Assembly: GCA_945869735.1 (NCBI GenBank)
Contig: CAMBPQ010000017.1
Coordinates: 1-52,257, forward strand
Length of the DNA stretch: 52,257 nucleotides
Origin: Planctomicrobium piriforme
Lineage (GTDB): Bacteria; Planctomycetota; Planctomycetia; Pirellulales; UBA1268
Direction of reading: 5' to 3'
Part shown: piece after piece, positions 20,826 through 27,618 of the stretch
Numbering within the stretch: the first letter of the stretch is position 1
Layout: each line of letters opens with the position of its first letter
Made by a program: the position numbers and the translations under genes
The notes under the pieces: model-generated
The model's input: the letters and a program-made list of their open reading frames with translations, nothing else
The model's database searches: none
Told to the model about the DNA's origin: nothing

Positions 20826-21304
20826 CTCCCGGGCTCTGAGGAAGCGCAAGTACGTAAGCCGTACGGCTACCCGTCAAGAAGCCCCAATCGCGAGCGCGTG
20901 GAATGCAGGTAGCTTCGAGACGATACCGGAATGGTTCACCGGCGGAGACGTGCTCGGTGCCGAGGGATTTTGCTACAGGATGCCCGCGTGGCCGACAGGG
21001 CGTTGCTCGTGAGTCGCAAAGATTCCCCGGCGTCTGCGCGTGTCACCCTCGGCTCCTCACGATCGAGAATCGTTTCGATCATCCGTGCGGCTTGCCGCTC
21101 CTCAGGAAGCCAAGCGCGGGGAATACGGTTCCCGTGCCACCCCGCTCCGCGTCACTGGCGCGGTCGCCATCCGCACACCCGTCACTCGCGCTTCGGGCTT
21201 CTTGGAACCGACGACGACACCTTCCGCCAGAAAGCCCACCGGCGTGATCTACCCGTCTGCCCGGCCACGGCGGTCCCGTGATTTCGCTGTAGGCTCGCGG
21301 CCGG
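20826..21304. other. intergenic region between convergent genes, holding a family 2 repeat
   Basis: This 479-bp gap separates the ends of the glycerate kinase and hydroxypyruvate isomerase-like genes. Bases 20874-21130 are the family 2 repeat described below. The right part (21131-21304) has only a degenerate echo of the same material (GGGCTTCTTGG near 21196) and no gene that I can support. Confidence 0.6.
20874..21130 (+). repeat. family 2 modular repeat, copy 1
   Basis: Order on the plus strand: module P (20874-20912, GAAGCCCCAATCGCGAGCGC...), module R (about 20928-21044, containing GATTTTGCTACAGGATGCC and GTCGCAAAGATTCCCCGGCG), module Q (about 21050-21100, CTCCTCACGATCGAGAATCG...) and a second shortened P (21102-21130). 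The same modules occur in inverse orientation at 23290-23626 and 27350-27594. P also occurs inside family 1 copies at 39517-39553 and 43357-43395. It lies wholly between convergent genes. Confidence 0.8.
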
Positions 21305-22280: not shown

Positions 22281-23255
22281 ATGCCATCCATTAAACGGAT
22301 TCTCGTCACCGGCGGTGCTGGCTTTCTTGGCAGCCACCTCTGTGAACGTCTGGTCGACGTGGGGCATGATGTCATCTGCGTCGACAACTTTTTCACCAGC
22401 CAGAAGTCGAACGTGGCTCATCTGCTCGGCCGCGGCAACTTCGAGCTTCTGCGGCACGATGTCATCCATCCGCTCTGGCTCGAGGTCGATGAGATCTACA
22501 ACCTCGCCTGCCCCGCGGCCCCGGGCCATTATCAATACAACCCTATCAAGACGATGAAGACGAGCGTGATGGGGGCGATCAACGTGCTCGGCATGGCCAA
22601 GCGGTGCCGGGCGAAGGTGCTGCAGGCCTCGACGAGCGAGGTCTACGGCGATCCCGAGGTGCATCCGCAGCCGGAGAGCTATCGGGGTTCCGTCAATCCT
22701 ATCGGTCCGCGGGCCTGTTACGACGAGGGCAAGCGTGCGGCCGAGACGCTCTTCATGGACTACCACCGCGCCAACGGCGTCAACGTGCGCATCGTGAGGA
22801 TTTTCAATACCTACGGGCCACGGATGCATCCCTTCGACGGTCGCGTGGTCTCGAACTTCATTCGCCAGGCACTTGCCGGCGAATCGATCACCATCTTCGG
22901 CTCGGGGTCCCAGACACGCAGCTTCTGCTACCGCGACGACCTTGTCGAAGGCATGGTCCGGATGATGAACGGCCCCGACGACTTCATCGGCCCGGTGAAC
23001 ATCGGCAACCCGGGCGAGTTCACGATCCGGCAACTCGCTGAACTGACGCTCGAACTCACGGGCTCGCGTTCGCAGGTCATCGAAAAGCCCCTGCCAGTCG
23101 ACGATCCGGAGCGACGGCGGCCCGACATCACGCTGGCGAAGAAGCACCTCGGCTGGGAGCCGACGGTGCCGCTCCGCGAGGGTCTTACTAAGACGATCGA
23201 CTGGTTCAAATCGGTCAGCATCGGGGACTTCCGCGCCCCAACGCCAAACTACTGA
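22281..23255 (+). CDS. UDP-glucuronate decarboxylase (UDP-xylose synthase)
   Basis: It converts UDP-glucuronate to UDP-xylose with tightly bound NAD+ and feeds polysaccharide or glycan synthesis. This is a 324-residue extended SDR. The Rossmann motif is GGAGFLGSH (residues 11-19). The catalytic set fits UXS enzymes: E120 in STSEVYGDP, and Y147 and K151 in YDEGK. Other family signatures are [17 protein letters not shown] and [17 protein letters not shown] 22281 starts the conserved [12 protein letters not shown]; the longer frame overlaps the divergent gene. The product may join the envelope-related genes of this window, but no glycosyltransferase follows it directly. Confidence 0.95.
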
Positions 23256-23657
23256 CCTCGCTGGAACCTTCGTGAGCGGTTTGGGGTGGCGGGCGTATTC
23301 CCCGCGCTCGCGCTTGGGGCTTCCTGGCGGCAGGAACTAGCGAGCGGCCCGCCACACGGATGATCGAAATGATTCCCGATCGTGAGGAGCCGGTCGGAGG
23401 CACGCGCAGACGCCGGGGAATCTTTGCGACTCACTGGCGGCGCCCCGTCGGCCAGGCAGGCATCCTGTAGCAAAATCCCCCGGCGGCGAGCATGTCACCG
23501 CCGGTGAACTAATCCGGGACCGATTTGAGGCCGCGCGTATTCCCCGCGCTCGCGGTTGGGGCTTCCTGAAGAGCGGCACGTCGCACGGATAATCGAAACG
23601 ATTCCCGATCGTGAGGAGCCGGTCGGTGTGCGGGACGAATGCGGGCCGCTCCTTCGG
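23256..23657. other. intergenic region between convergent genes, holding a family 2 repeat
   Basis: Most of this 402-bp gap between the UDP-glucuronate decarboxylase and VanZ-like gene ends is the family 2 array. I see no coding sequence. The few dozen bases at each edge carry no clear terminator hairpin with a T run. Confidence 0.6.
23290..23626 (-). repeat. family 2 modular repeat, copy 2 (one and a half units)
   Basis: Plus-strand order is P (23290-23326), Q (23350-23396), R (23400-23517), P (23532-23569), Q (23580-23626), so it is a direct repeat with a 242-bp period in which the second unit stops after Q. The second Q (GATAATCGAAACGATTCCCG...) differs from the first at a few positions. 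Its orientation is opposite to copy 1. It is located entirely between convergent genes. Confidence 0.82.
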
Positions 23658-24062
23658 TCACGCGTTGCGGCGAGTAATTGTGAACACGACGGCGGCGACG
23701 GCCAGCAAGCCCCCTGAGATGCCGATGCAATCGTAGACCCAGTCGAGCGGCTCGGCGGACCGGCTGAAGAGGGGCTGCGTGAGTTCGTCGACGATGCCGA
23801 ACGCGGCCATTGCGGCCCCGAGCCAGCCGGCCGTCCATACCGTCCAGCGGCCTGACACGAAAAGCGTCGCGCTGGCCAGCGTCGCGAGTCCGGCGTAGGC
23901 GATGAAGTGAAGCGTCTTGTCGGACGGGGCATTTGGCCCGAGGAGTTCCTCGGGCCGCGGATAGTGGGTGGCGCACACCAAGACGACCGTGTAGGCAACG
24001 GTAGCCAACGCGAACAGCCGTGACATCCTCGGGCAACGGTTGGCAGATCCTGACGTCGGCAT
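23658..24062 (-). CDS. VanZ-like membrane protein
   Basis: This 134-residue protein has four hydrophobic segments. The VanZ-type signature is visible: LGPNAPSDKTLHFIAYAGLA near residue 42 (Asp-Lys-x-x-His in the first loop) and later FGIVDELTQPLFSRSAEPLDWVYDCIG, with the conserved Asp-Glu and Asp residues. VanZ confers low-level teicoplanin resistance in Enterococcus, but most VanZ-like proteins are uncharacterised. The start is uncertain: ATG 24062 is chosen, ATG 24026 begins closer to the first helix, and neither has a good Shine-Dalgarno site. It diverges from the ACP gene. Confidence 0.75.
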   Translation of the reverse strand: MPTSGSANRCPRMSRLFALATVAYTVVLVCATHYPRPEELLGPNAPSDKTLHFIAYAGLATLASATLFVSGRWTVWTAGWLGAAMAAFGIVDELTQPLFSRSAEPLDWVYDCIGISGGLLAVAAVVFTITRRNA

Positions 24063-24205
24063 GATGCGTTCGAGCGGACTGGGGGTGGCCGCACTCGGTG
24101 GCGGGAAGAGCTTCGAGAATACACGGTTTTTTTGCTCTTCGCCCGTGAGGTTTCGCCCGCTATCCTCCCCTTCCCACCCGTCCACATGCCTGGAGGTTTT
24201 GTCCC

Positions 24206-24472
24206 ATGGATCGTCAGGAACTGTCGGCTGTTGTCCATGAACTCCTCGAGAAGGAAACCGGCGAGACGTACCCGGGCCTGCAGGAGTCGACGTCGCTGCG
24301 TGAAGGACTGAACCTCGATTCGCTCGACATGGCCGGTCTTGTCCTCCACATCGAGACCCGGTTCGGCATCCAGATCGAGACTGAGTTACTCGAGGACATC
24401 ACAACCGTGGGCAACATGCTCGACGTGCTGGACCGCAAACTCGCCGCCCAGGCCGGCAGGCAGGCGGCCTGA
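24206..24472 (+). CDS. acyl carrier protein
   Basis: This 88-residue ACP carries growing acyl chains on a phosphopantetheine arm. The attachment site is Ser39 in LNLDSLDMAGLVLHIE; the usual DSLD motif and the following acidic helix are present, and the rest shows the four-helix pattern. It has a clear Shine-Dalgarno (GGAGG at 24192-24196, nine bases from ATG). It is the first gene of a cluster with a ketosynthase-like protein and a ketosynthase, which implies that it is a dedicated carrier and not the housekeeping AcpP. The partner acyltransferase and phosphopantetheinyl transferase are not in this window. Confidence 0.9.
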   Translation: MDRQELSAVVHELLEKETGETYPGLQESTSLREGLNLDSLDMAGLVLHIETRFGIQIETELLEDITTVGNMLDVLDRKLAAQAGRQAA

Positions 24473-24534
24473 CGCCCACCGCGCTTCCGGCGGTCGGTGG
24501 CCGGGTCTCCCTTTTCCGACACGGACGTCACCCC

Positions 24535-25413
24535 ATGAACGCACTTCTCCAGCCTTCGTTCCGCGGCCAGGCCGGCTTCGCGATCCGCAGCCATGCCTTC
24601 CTGGAAACGCCGCTCTCCGGCGTGGCAGCCCTGCGGGACGCGGCGTCTCCACCCGCCGCCCCGGTGCTTCCCACGCGGTTTCTCAGACACGCTGACGAGC
24701 ACACGGTCGTCGCGATCCGCGCCGTGCTGGCGGCGGTCGCGGCCCTGCCAAGACCCGTCTCGTTTGATACCAGCGGCGTCGTCGCGGCACCCTGCCAGGC
24801 TGGACGAATCGCGGCCGCCCGGTCGTTGGCCCTGCTCCGCACCGGCGGGGCCGTCACGGTATCGGCGCACCTGGCGCCGCAATGCTGCCTGCACTCGCTG
24901 GCCGGCGCGGTGAGCGTGGCGCTCGGGATGCACGGACCGCACATCGGCGTCGGTGGTGGTCCCGGTGCCCTTGCGGAGGGGCTGTTCGCTGCCATGTCGC
25001 TCTTTCAGCCGGGGTCGGCTTCCGGCTGCGATGCCGTCTGGTTGATCATCACCGAGTGGGCTGCCGAGCCCGTGCTCGATGCAACGGGGGCGGCCATCGG
25101 CGATCCCGTCTGCCGTGCACTGGCGATGTTGCTCGCTCCAGCCGCCATCGCTGACGAAGCACGGGTCGACGTGTCGCTCCACGTCCACGTCGCTGACTCG
25201 TCGACCATGCCTGATGACGGGAAAGAGAGCGATCTTGCGGCCCTCGCACGGGCGATCGAGATGTGCGCGACCGGAACGGCGCTCACGTCGTGGACCGTGA
25301 CAAGTCCGTGGGGTATCCAGTTTCGCGTGGCAGCCCGAGAGCCGGCAGCCGTTCCCGTCATCCGACGACAGGTATCGACCCCTGACCGTGTCCTGACGTG
25401 GGAGGCGGCATGA
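24535..25413 (+). CDS. ketosynthase-like protein without catalytic Cys (chain-length-factor type)
   Basis: This 292-residue protein of the thiolase fold resembles the short ketosynthase-like family annotated as beta-ketoacyl synthase chain length factor. The segment HSLAGAVSVALGMHGPHIGVGGGPGALAEGL (residues 120-150) aligns with the ketosynthase active-site region, but the Cys expected after GPH is replaced by a Gly-rich stretch. Active-site His residues are also not evident. It may form a heterodimer with the downstream ketosynthase, as KSbeta does with KSalpha in type II polyketide systems, but that is inference. It overlaps the ketosynthase gene by four bases (ATGA), which fits a fixed stoichiometry. 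Confidence 0.75.
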   Translation: MNALLQPSFRGQAGFAIRSHAFLETPLSGVAALRDAASPPAAPVLPTRFLRHADEHTVVAIRAVLAAVAALPRPVSFDTSGVVAAPCQAGRIAAARSLALLRTGGAVTVSAHLAPQCCLHSLAGAVSVALGMHGPHIGVGGGPGALAEGLFAAMSLFQPGSASGCDAVWLIITEWAAEPVLDATGAAIGDPVCRALAMLLAPAAIADEARVDVSLHVHVADSSTMPDDGKESDLAALARAIEMCATGTALTSWTVTSPWGIQFRVAAREPAAVPVIRRQVSTPDRVLTWEAA

Positions 25414-26645
25414 GCGGCTCGCTGTCGATGAATCGCGAGCCCGTGGTGATCACCGGCGTGGGCGCGGTGTCACCGCTGGGCTGCGAGTTCGGTGAGATCG
25501 CCGACAACCTGCTCGCGGGCCGCTCGGGCGTGCGGTCCGTGCCCCCGGGGGCGTATGCGCGGGACGGGGTGCAGTTCGCAGCCCCGGTCGAGCGGATTCC
25601 TGAGCCGCCGGCCGACGTCTCTGGTCTCTCCCCCGCGGAGTTTTCCGGGCTCGATCGGCTCGAACAACTCGCCCTCGCGGCTCTCGCCTCGGCGCTGACC
25701 GACGCCGGCCTGCCCCGCGACGGCGGGCCCAGGATTGGCCTCGTGCTCGGTCTCGGCGCCGAGCGTCTCAGGACCTGGGAACTCGACTTTCTCGAGGGCG
25801 GTACGCATGTCTTCGGCGACAGCCGCGACCGCACGCTCGTCCAGCGACTGGCCTGTCGGCTCGGCATCGTCGGCCCGGCAATGACGGTGGCCGCTGCCTG
25901 CGCTTCGAGTGGCTATGCGCTGGCGATGGGTCGCACCTGGATTGACTCCGGCTGGGTCGACGCCTGTCTCGTCGGGGGATGCGACATCCTGAGCCCGACG
26001 GCGATCGCCTCCTTCTACAACCTCCGGGCGCTCTCGAGGCGGAGCGACGATCCCTCCAGGGCCTCACGGCCTTTTGATTGCGACCGCGACGGATTCGTGA
26101 TGGCGGAGGGAGGGGCATTTTTCATGCTCGAGCGTGGGTCCGAGGCCCGGGCCCGCGGGGCGCGAATCCGTGGTGAGCTCGCGGGCGTCGGCATGTCCAG
26201 CGACGGCGCGCACATGGTGATCCCGAGCGAGAATCCCGTGCACGCGGCCCGGGCGATCTCCGCGTCGCTCGTCGACGCGGGCGTCCGCCCCGACGAGGTC
26301 GACTACGTCAACGCGCACGCCGCTGGCACACGCGTGGGGGACATCGCAGAGGCCGGCGCAATTCGGCTGGCGCTCGGCGACGCGACCGACGGCATCCCGG
26401 TGAGTTCCACCAAGAGCATGTCCGGCCACATGATCAGCGGCGCTGCGGCCTTCGAGGCGGTCGCCTGCCTCGTCGCCCTCGAGCGGCAGGCCGTTCCCCC
26501 CACCGTCAACCTCGATCGGCCGGACGTGCATTGCCGCCTTGACCACGTTCCACACGTCTTTCGCCCGCGGCAGGTCCGCGTGGCGGTGAGCAACTCGTTC
26601 GGCTTCGGGGGCTCGAACCTCTGCCTCGTGTTCCGCGCGGCCTAA
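25410..26645 (+). CDS. beta-ketoacyl-ACP synthase (FabF-like)
   Basis: It condenses an acyl chain with malonyl-ACP. This 411-residue enzyme shows a full catalytic triad: C164 in AAACASSGYA, H303 in YVNAHAAGTRVGD and H340 in TKSMSGHMISGA, with K335 just upstream. The PFDCDRDGFVMAEGG and NSFGFGGSN signatures of FabF-type enzymes are present. ATG 25410 overlaps the preceding gene by four bases, which argues for a functional pair. NAHAAGT replaces the usual NAHGTST at the first His motif, a small deviation also seen in specialised ketosynthases. With ACP and the ketosynthase-like partner it forms a minimal type II set; dehydratase and reductase genes are absent. Confidence 0.92.
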   Translation: MSGSLSMNREPVVITGVGAVSPLGCEFGEIADNLLAGRSGVRSVPPGAYARDGVQFAAPVERIPEPPADVSGLSPAEFSGLDRLEQLALAALASALTDAGLPRDGGPRIGLVLGLGAERLRTWELDFLEGGTHVFGDSRDRTLVQRLACRLGIVGPAMTVAAACASSGYALAMGRTWIDSGWVDACLVGGCDILSPTAIASFYNLRALSRRSDDPSRASRPFDCDRDGFVMAEGGAFFMLERGSEARARGARIRGELAGVGMSSDGAHMVIPSENPVHAARAISASLVDAGVRPDEVDYVNAHAAGTRVGDIAEAGAIRLALGDATDGIPVSSTKSMSGHMISGAAAFEAVACLVALERQAVPPTVNLDRPDVHCRLDHVPHVFRPRQVRVAVSNSFGFGGSNLCLVFRAA

Positions 26646-26709
26646 GGGCCGCGGCCAACCTCCCGTATCCACCACTATCAACATGCCCTGCCGCCAGGAG
26701 ACCACCACC

Positions 26710-27333
26710 ATGACGAAGCCCAGCCTGCCGCCAGCCGATCTCGCCACAATCGACGTCCTGCTCTCGCACCTGGTCGATCACTGGCATCGCTTCGAACCCG
26801 ACCATTCCGAGGAGGGGCTCCGCGGGCGAATCTGCGACCTGCATCGCTACAACTTTCTTCTCTGGCACGAGGAGGACGTCGCCCGTGCACCGAACGTCTC
26901 CGACGGGCGGATCGCCCAGGTGAAGCGGGCGATCGACCGCTACAACCAACTTCGTAACGACTGCATCGAGAAGGTCGACGATTGGCTCATCGCCGAACTG
27001 GCCGACCGTGGCATCGTCGCGGCACCATCGGCCCCCGCCGCCACTGAGACGCCCGGCGCCGCCATCGACCGGCTCTCGATCCTTGAACTCCGTCGCTATC
27101 ACATGCAGGAGCAGGTCGAGCGGAAGGACGCGACGCCTGAACACATCGAGAAGGCGGCGGGCCGTCTGGCGATCCTCGATCTCCAGCAACAGCACCTGAT
27201 CGATTCAACCGACCGCCTGCTCACCGAGATTTTTGCCGGTGAGCGTCCGCTCCGCGTCTTCCGTCAGATGAAGATGTACAACGACCCGACGATGAACCCG
27301 TATCTCTACAAGGCCGCCGCGAAAGCCGCCTGA
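26710..27333 (+). CDS. DUF4254 family protein
   Basis: This 207-residue helical protein belongs to DUF4254. Family features are HWHRFEPDHSEEGLRGRICDLHRYNFLLWHEEDVAR near the N-terminus, DRYNQLRNDCIEKVDDWL, and DRLSILELRRYHMQEQ in the second half, with QMKMYNDPTMNP at the end. No enzymatic role is known; members are often found near lipopolysaccharide or glycan genes. ATG 26710 is preferred since AGGAG (26696-26700) sits nine bases upstream; ATG 26683 would place the site inside the gene. It follows the ketosynthase by 64 bases and may belong to the same transcript. Confidence 0.85.
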   Translation: MTKPSLPPADLATIDVLLSHLVDHWHRFEPDHSEEGLRGRICDLHRYNFLLWHEEDVARAPNVSDGRIAQVKRAIDRYNQLRNDCIEKVDDWLIAELADRGIVAAPSAPAATETPGAAIDRLSILELRRYHMQEQVERKDATPEHIEKAAGRLAILDLQQQHLIDSTDRLLTEIFAGERPLRVFRQMKMYNDPTMNPYLYKAAAKAA

Positions 27334-27349: not shown

Positions 27350-27594
27350 CCCGGATTCCCCGCGCTCGCGCTTGGGGCTTCTTGACGGGAGTCACATACT
27401 CCCGATCGTGAGGAGCCGGGGGTGGCACGCGCAGACGCCGTGGAATCTCTGCGACTCACGAGCGATCCTCAGTCGGCCACGCAGGCATCCTGTAGCAAAA
27501 TCCCCCGGCGCCGAGCATGTCACCGCCGGTGAACCAATCCGGCGCTGACTCAATGCGACCCGGATTCCCCGCGCTCGCGCTTGGGACTTCTTGA
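27350..27594 (-). repeat. family 2 modular repeat, copy 3
   Basis: Plus-strand order: P (27350-27384), shortened Q (about 27400-27418), R (27424-27542) and P (27559-27594), giving a direct repeat of P with a 209-bp period. Module R ends with the inverted pair CGCCGG and CCGGCG around a nine-base loop (27523-27543). Its orientation matches copy 2. It fills the convergent gap between the DUF4254 and squalene-repeat genes. Confidence 0.82.
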
Positions 27595-27618
27595 GGGATG
27601 ACGCGGCCGCTTTCGTGG

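Follow-up and report, generated by a model that had tools for sequence, protein, structure and literature searches.

A four-gene block with a truncated, cysteine-less ketosynthase partner is a candidate acyl-ACP elongation module in Pirellulales

A block of four genes in the planctomycete Planctomicrobium piriforme may form a dedicated acyl-ACP elongation module, in which a heterodimer of a ketosynthase (KS) and a truncated, inactive relative (sKS) would borrow the remaining steps from fatty-acid synthesis (FAS) and feed its chain into an envelope lipid, with lipid A as the most probable one. We give this reading as a whole an even chance of being correct. The block encodes an acyl carrier protein (ACP), sKS, KS, and a DUF4254 protein, and lies in a stretch of 52,257 nucleotides (the window), which is an entire contig of a 3.17 Mb genome that is 95% complete. 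Together, KS, sKS, and ACP work like a KS/chain-length-factor (CLF) set in the general sense, with a catalytic KS and a partner that lacks the active-site Cys and has a predicted thiolase fold; membership in any of the known pathway families is not claimed. As an inactive KS partner, sKS is probably of a type without earlier description. Planctomycete envelopes are unusual, and, to our knowledge, the lipid A chains of these bacteria are hardly known. If the bolder version of the proposal, given below, is true, chain-length-factor enzymology, known from polyketides, would be serving core envelope work.

All four genes are present on the + strand. The ACP (24206-24472, 88 aa) has a DSL phosphopantetheine site, a match to PF00550 (2.2e-8), a homologue in more than 60 related loci, and its own Shine-Dalgarno sequence, GGAGG at 24192-24196, 9 bases ahead of the ATG. 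It is followed by sKS (24535-25413, 292 aa), which we classify as a CLF-like partner from a structure model and a fold search, and by KS (25410-26645, 411 aa), which has a complete C-H-H-K set and both KS domains (PF00109, 1.4e-40; PF02801, 7.5e-32). The sKS stop and the KS start share the ATGA at 25410-25413, giving a 4-base overlap, with GGGAGG immediately upstream of the KS ATG. The last gene, with a DUF4254 domain (PF14063, 2.3e-49), ends at 27333; its likelier start is the ATG at 26710 rather than the upstream in-frame ATG at 26683, because of an AGGAG site and the starts of relatives. The first-pass annotation had listed these same elements, down to the separate Shine-Dalgarno sequence, the missing Cys, and the overlap, and had found the block to be without malonyl transferase, reductase, or dehydratase; we likewise detected no MAT, KR, DH, or ER within the four genes. 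The housekeeping fabD-fabG-acpP-fabF set of the same genome is on another contig (contig 16). A sigma-70 promoter scan gave no match, which carries no weight either way.

The identity of sKS is apparent from structure prediction rather than from domain searches, in which its sole Pfam match is sub-threshold (PF13723, E 0.057) and only one of 16 diverse sKS sequences has even a weak match. The predicted fold is of the thiolase type (pLDDT 83.8, pTM 0.83). In Foldseek, the first match to the model is ApeC (6qsp_B, E 1.2e-7) and the second is 7f28, an Acinetobacter aryl polyene structure, and VIA-align gives Z scores of 17-18 for CLFs and FabFs alike. The model aligns with the whole length of FabF, with the second half much reduced, so that sKS is not a plain N-terminal half of a KS. 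At the site aligned with the active Cys, the window protein and most relatives have GGGP, with GGGT, SGGQ, and others also found. The predicted fold of sKS is that of a truncated chain-length factor, yet it could be assigned to no sequence family. The CLFs of aryl polyene (APE) systems are likewise half-size partners with a single thiolase domain (PMC8358021). Profile comparison links sKS to FabF (E 3.6e-5) and to a streptomycete CLF (E 1.5e-4), both over partial length, and not to the APE CLF profile (E 0.33, for a profile of two sequences); therefore, sKS may have shrunk independently of the APE CLFs. There was also no profile match between sKS and its own KS lineage (E 0.28).

Two features argue for a fixed KS/sKS heterodimer, in which sKS would complete the acyl channel of KS. 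First, the two genes overlap by 4 bases in 49 loci and by 1 base in 16, that is, in 65 of 72 loci, as would be expected of a pair made at a fixed ratio. Second, the two proteins have complementary segments. In FabF, a segment with an S-P-x-x-V-P motif lies at what we take to be the subunit interface. All 70 KSs have 57-58 residues where FabF has 65, a loss of 7-8 residues, and none of the 70 has the motif in that segment, whereas such a motif is kept in 72 of 74 sKSs. The exact motif is also absent from the other KSs compared, but their segment is at least as long as that of FabF. In the mechanism that we infer, KS and sKS would be obligate partners, with Cys-His-His chemistry on KS and an interface segment from sKS lining the acyl channel, so as to set the length or shape of the chain. 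The pair would then be a compact system for studying chain-length control by an inactive KS partner.

The residues of KS suggest how the chain may be handled. In FabF numbering, C163, H303, K335, and H340 are kept in all 70 KS sequences, as are D265, G399, and F400, and the FabF gate residue Ile108 is replaced by Ala or Gly throughout. Asp265, which is retained in KSs that free the chain at every round, is found in every KS compared in an earlier study except actKS, which retains its chain over repeated rounds, and ApeO and Iga11 have Ala at 399 (PMC7138838), where the window KS has Gly. Since the gates of KS are of the FAS type, the chain is probably let go after each condensation and then reduced by housekeeping enzymes. 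Elongation would take place on the ACP of the module, with each beta-ketoacyl-ACP released for reduction and dehydration by FabG and its housekeeping partners, and with malonyl units coming from FabD, much as in the NodF/NodE or AcpXL sets. An acyltransferase would then place the finished acyl chain on an envelope lipid, for which lipid A is the best candidate. The first-pass annotation had raised the borrowing of fatty-acid synthesis enzymes as a possibility; we consider it the most likely mode of action, and the genome's own set on contig 16 is in keeping with it.

Conservation of the block in other planctomycetes, which had been set as a check, is extensive within one family. Of 60 genomes searched in the window's family, its own genome counted, 56 contain sKS, as do 2 of 38 in the remainder of the order; among 396 genomes sampled from the order, 7 outside the family have it. 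Across 294 genomes from the phylum, other classes gave full-length KSs only, the window's own sKS excepted, and a search through about 85,000 species returned 63 loci, all with planctomycete titles save a few that are apparently misnamed. The ACP-sKS-KS-DUF4254 order is kept almost throughout the family. Because order and overlap are conserved across more than 60 contigs, the block is more than a chance arrangement. A near-universal family module that combines a KS/CLF-like pair with an ACP of its own would mean a private lipid in part of the outer membrane.

Not every conserved gene nearby is a likely member of the pathway. Upstream are a UDP-glucuronate decarboxylase, that is, a UDP-xylose synthase (22281-23255, + strand; match to PDB 2b69, E 7e-125), and, divergently oriented, a VanZ-like membrane protein (23658-24185, - strand; true start probably further inside), which scores above the NCBIfam vanZ_1 cut-off. 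Both genes had been correctly recognized in the first-pass annotation, and their closeness had been taken as a clue to an envelope lipid. This clue carries little weight, since a long family-wide synteny that also takes in an isomerase-like gene, a glycerate kinase, and a riboflavin gene explains the proximity of the UDP-xylose synthase and VanZ genes alike. No UDP-xylose synthase was seen adjoining the outgroup ACP-sKS-KS sets, and the two genes look like mere conserved neighbors, the synthase being probably outside the module.

A few relatives depart from the common arrangement. In one, the usual locus holds ACP-sKS-DUF4254 but no KS, and an sKS-KS pair lies apart from it, by chaperonin genes (L102 and L103; G004:C159 and C537), and a similar lone sKS-KS pair is found in G010 (L057). 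It seems that the sKS-KS pair moves as a unit, or that the draft genomes G004 and G010 are mixed. In another (L104, G022:C2), isomerase-like and GFO/IDH/MocA oxidoreductase genes, of the sugar-metabolism type, stand between KS and DUF4254, which is still present.

The envelope destination itself is better indicated by neighbors in other lineages. A DUF374 gene directly precedes the ACP gene on the same strand in L084, L089, L183, L184, L185, and L186, which are all the loci with a visible upstream side among the KS lineages closest to the window's family. DUF374 proteins have been identified as LpxJ, the late acyltransferases of lipid A (PMC6148475). In G528 and G651 (99% complete), the genome has no DUF374 gene besides the one by the set; a second is present in G501 and G666. 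Only adjacency counts here, since DUF374 occurs in 91 of 98 genomes of the order, with or without sKS, which makes co-occurrence uninformative. The window genome has LpxC and a single DUF374/LpxJ-like gene, on a different contig from the block, and within the window's family neither DUF374 nor an oxoamine synthase adjoins the block. From these neighbors, the likeliest role of the module would be to provide the enzymes of an envelope lipid with a special acyl-ACP, lipid A being the likeliest destination. The earlier idea of an envelope-linked lipid thus gains from the DUF374 and oxoamine synthase neighbors and little from the proximity of the UDP-xylose and VanZ genes. In two relatives, a WsaF-type double glycosyltransferase adjoins the block (L087:3064-6216, L096:5952-9071), a hint of a surface glycan context.

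A second outgroup lineage points to another lipid. In L106 and L182, the ACP, sKS, and KS genes are found together with DUF6134 and an oxoamine synthase of the SPT/BioF type. The chain could accordingly be joined to an amino acid to form a sphingolipid- or sulfonolipid-like base, in an acyl-ACP-dependent reaction like that of AcpR and SPT; specialized ACPs are known to feed SPT in Rhodobacteria (PMC9386255), and an oxoamine synthase 47% identical to that of L182 is encoded on C12 of the window genome (L204:8977-14671, G000:C12), with genes for a flavin monooxygenase and an epimerase-type protein downstream. We think this reading improbable for the window. The C12-type enzyme is present in 10 of 60 family genomes, compared with 56 for sKS, too patchily to be a general partner there, and L105, L106, and L182 have KSs that fall in a clade of their own. 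A lipid A destination remains our preferred reading.

The phylogeny of KS bears on the remaining alternatives. In a careful tree, the sKS-partnered KSs form one clade (24 rows, support 100/100) with no other members. This clade is distinct from planctomycete FabFs, among which the genome's own FabF clusters, and from E. coli FabF and FabB, NodE, and streptomycete KSalpha. The first-pass annotation had asked whether KS would group with housekeeping FabF or with type II families, and it is distinct from both, with KSalpha represented by three streptomycete plasmid references only. A FabB-like aryl-polyene KS sits with FabB in the same tree, away from the sKS-partnered KSs. The careful tree left out the ApeO-type KS; a quick tree places ApeO-type and Bacteroidota polyene KSs elsewhere, but on long branches, so that their separation from the sKS-partnered KSs is provisional.

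One such alternative is that the block is a small secondary-metabolite set, in which KS and a CLF make an aryl polyene, or another polyene or polyketide, that is excreted or membrane-bound. ApeO-ApeC is similar in that a catalytic KS is joined to a half-size thiolase-fold partner and ApeC is the closest match to the sKS model; the KS-CLF-ACP logic is shared, and APE chains are likewise lipid-linked. The neighbors differ, however. The block and its conserved flanks are without CoA ligase, ammonia-lyase, dedicated KR/DH, thioesterase, and LolA/MMPL export genes, unlike the APE-type sets L197 and L221, and KS retains the FabF-type Gly399, where ApeO and Iga11 have Ala. That the set is conserved almost universally in the window's family, like a core function, and that KS lies outside the type II KSalpha clade also speak against a polyene or polyketide, which we regard as unlikely. 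It is more doubtful still that KS/sKS serves general fatty-acid synthesis as a variant condensing enzyme, without a dedicated pathway: KS is 38% identical to both E. coli FabF and its own FabF, and the NCBIfam model that fits it best is TIGR03150 (fabF), but it scores 347.1, below the equivalog cut-off of 493.75 that its own FabF (594.6) exceeds, has a private ACP, and falls in a clade made up of sKS-partnered KSs only.

The elongation module that we favor shares parts with several known systems. Like NodF/NodE, it would be a lone ACP-KS pair, with the ACP just ahead of the KS, that borrows the rest of fatty-acid synthesis, although no sKS-like gene lies by NodE in the two regions seen and the KS is of another clade. 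The rhizobial acpXL-fabZXL-fabF2XL-fabF1XL-adhXL-lpxXL set, for the very long chains of lipid A, similarly has its own ACP and two KS-type proteins with a lipid A type acyltransferase alongside, as in our six outgroup loci, but it includes a dehydratase, a dehydrogenase, and LpxXL, whereas in the window's family DUF374 is elsewhere. The first-pass annotation had likened the block to a minimal type II set, and the tight coupling of KS, an inactive KS homologue, and an ACP bears this out, as do the fold search, the gene overlap, and the complementary segment. The likeness does not extend to the classical aromatic lineage: there the CLF is full-length (~400 aa), the KSalpha clade is separate, and KSalpha has Asn265 and Ser398 where the window KS, with its FAS-like gates, has Asp and Phe.

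Less is to be said of DUF4254 (26710-27333), for which the model is all-helical with good confidence (91.3) and many residues that are invariant and polar. Foldseek gave no match under 0.001, VIA Z scores were below 8, which is meaningless for helical bundles, and there is no sequence relative in the PDB, so that the fold offers no informative structural match from which to read a function. In the literature searched, a single paper names the family. DUF4254 follows KS in the window's family only, and its genes outside that family adjoin unrelated genes; it would be a family-specific helper, and the block gives DUF4254 a testable setting. In a bolder version of our proposal, which we put forward tentatively and expect to be wrong more often than right, the KS lineage and a new, independently shrunken chain-length factor would make an unseen acyl chain for a glycolipid of the Pirellulales outer membrane, be it lipid A or another, with DUF4254 a new acyl-handling protein of one family.

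Two further KS-like proteins are encoded in the same genome, with the active Cys replaced by Glu (L099:7339-8763, G000:C16) and Asp (L101:3919-5184, G000:C88), and by the latter, at the contig start, is a KS fragment with NAN in place of the catalytic NAH. Finally, an intergenic repeat of about 200 bases, with copies about 85% alike, occurs in the window at 20871-21068, 23374-23569, and 27400-27597, as well as on other contigs of the genome, and two copies in the same orientation flank the four-gene block.
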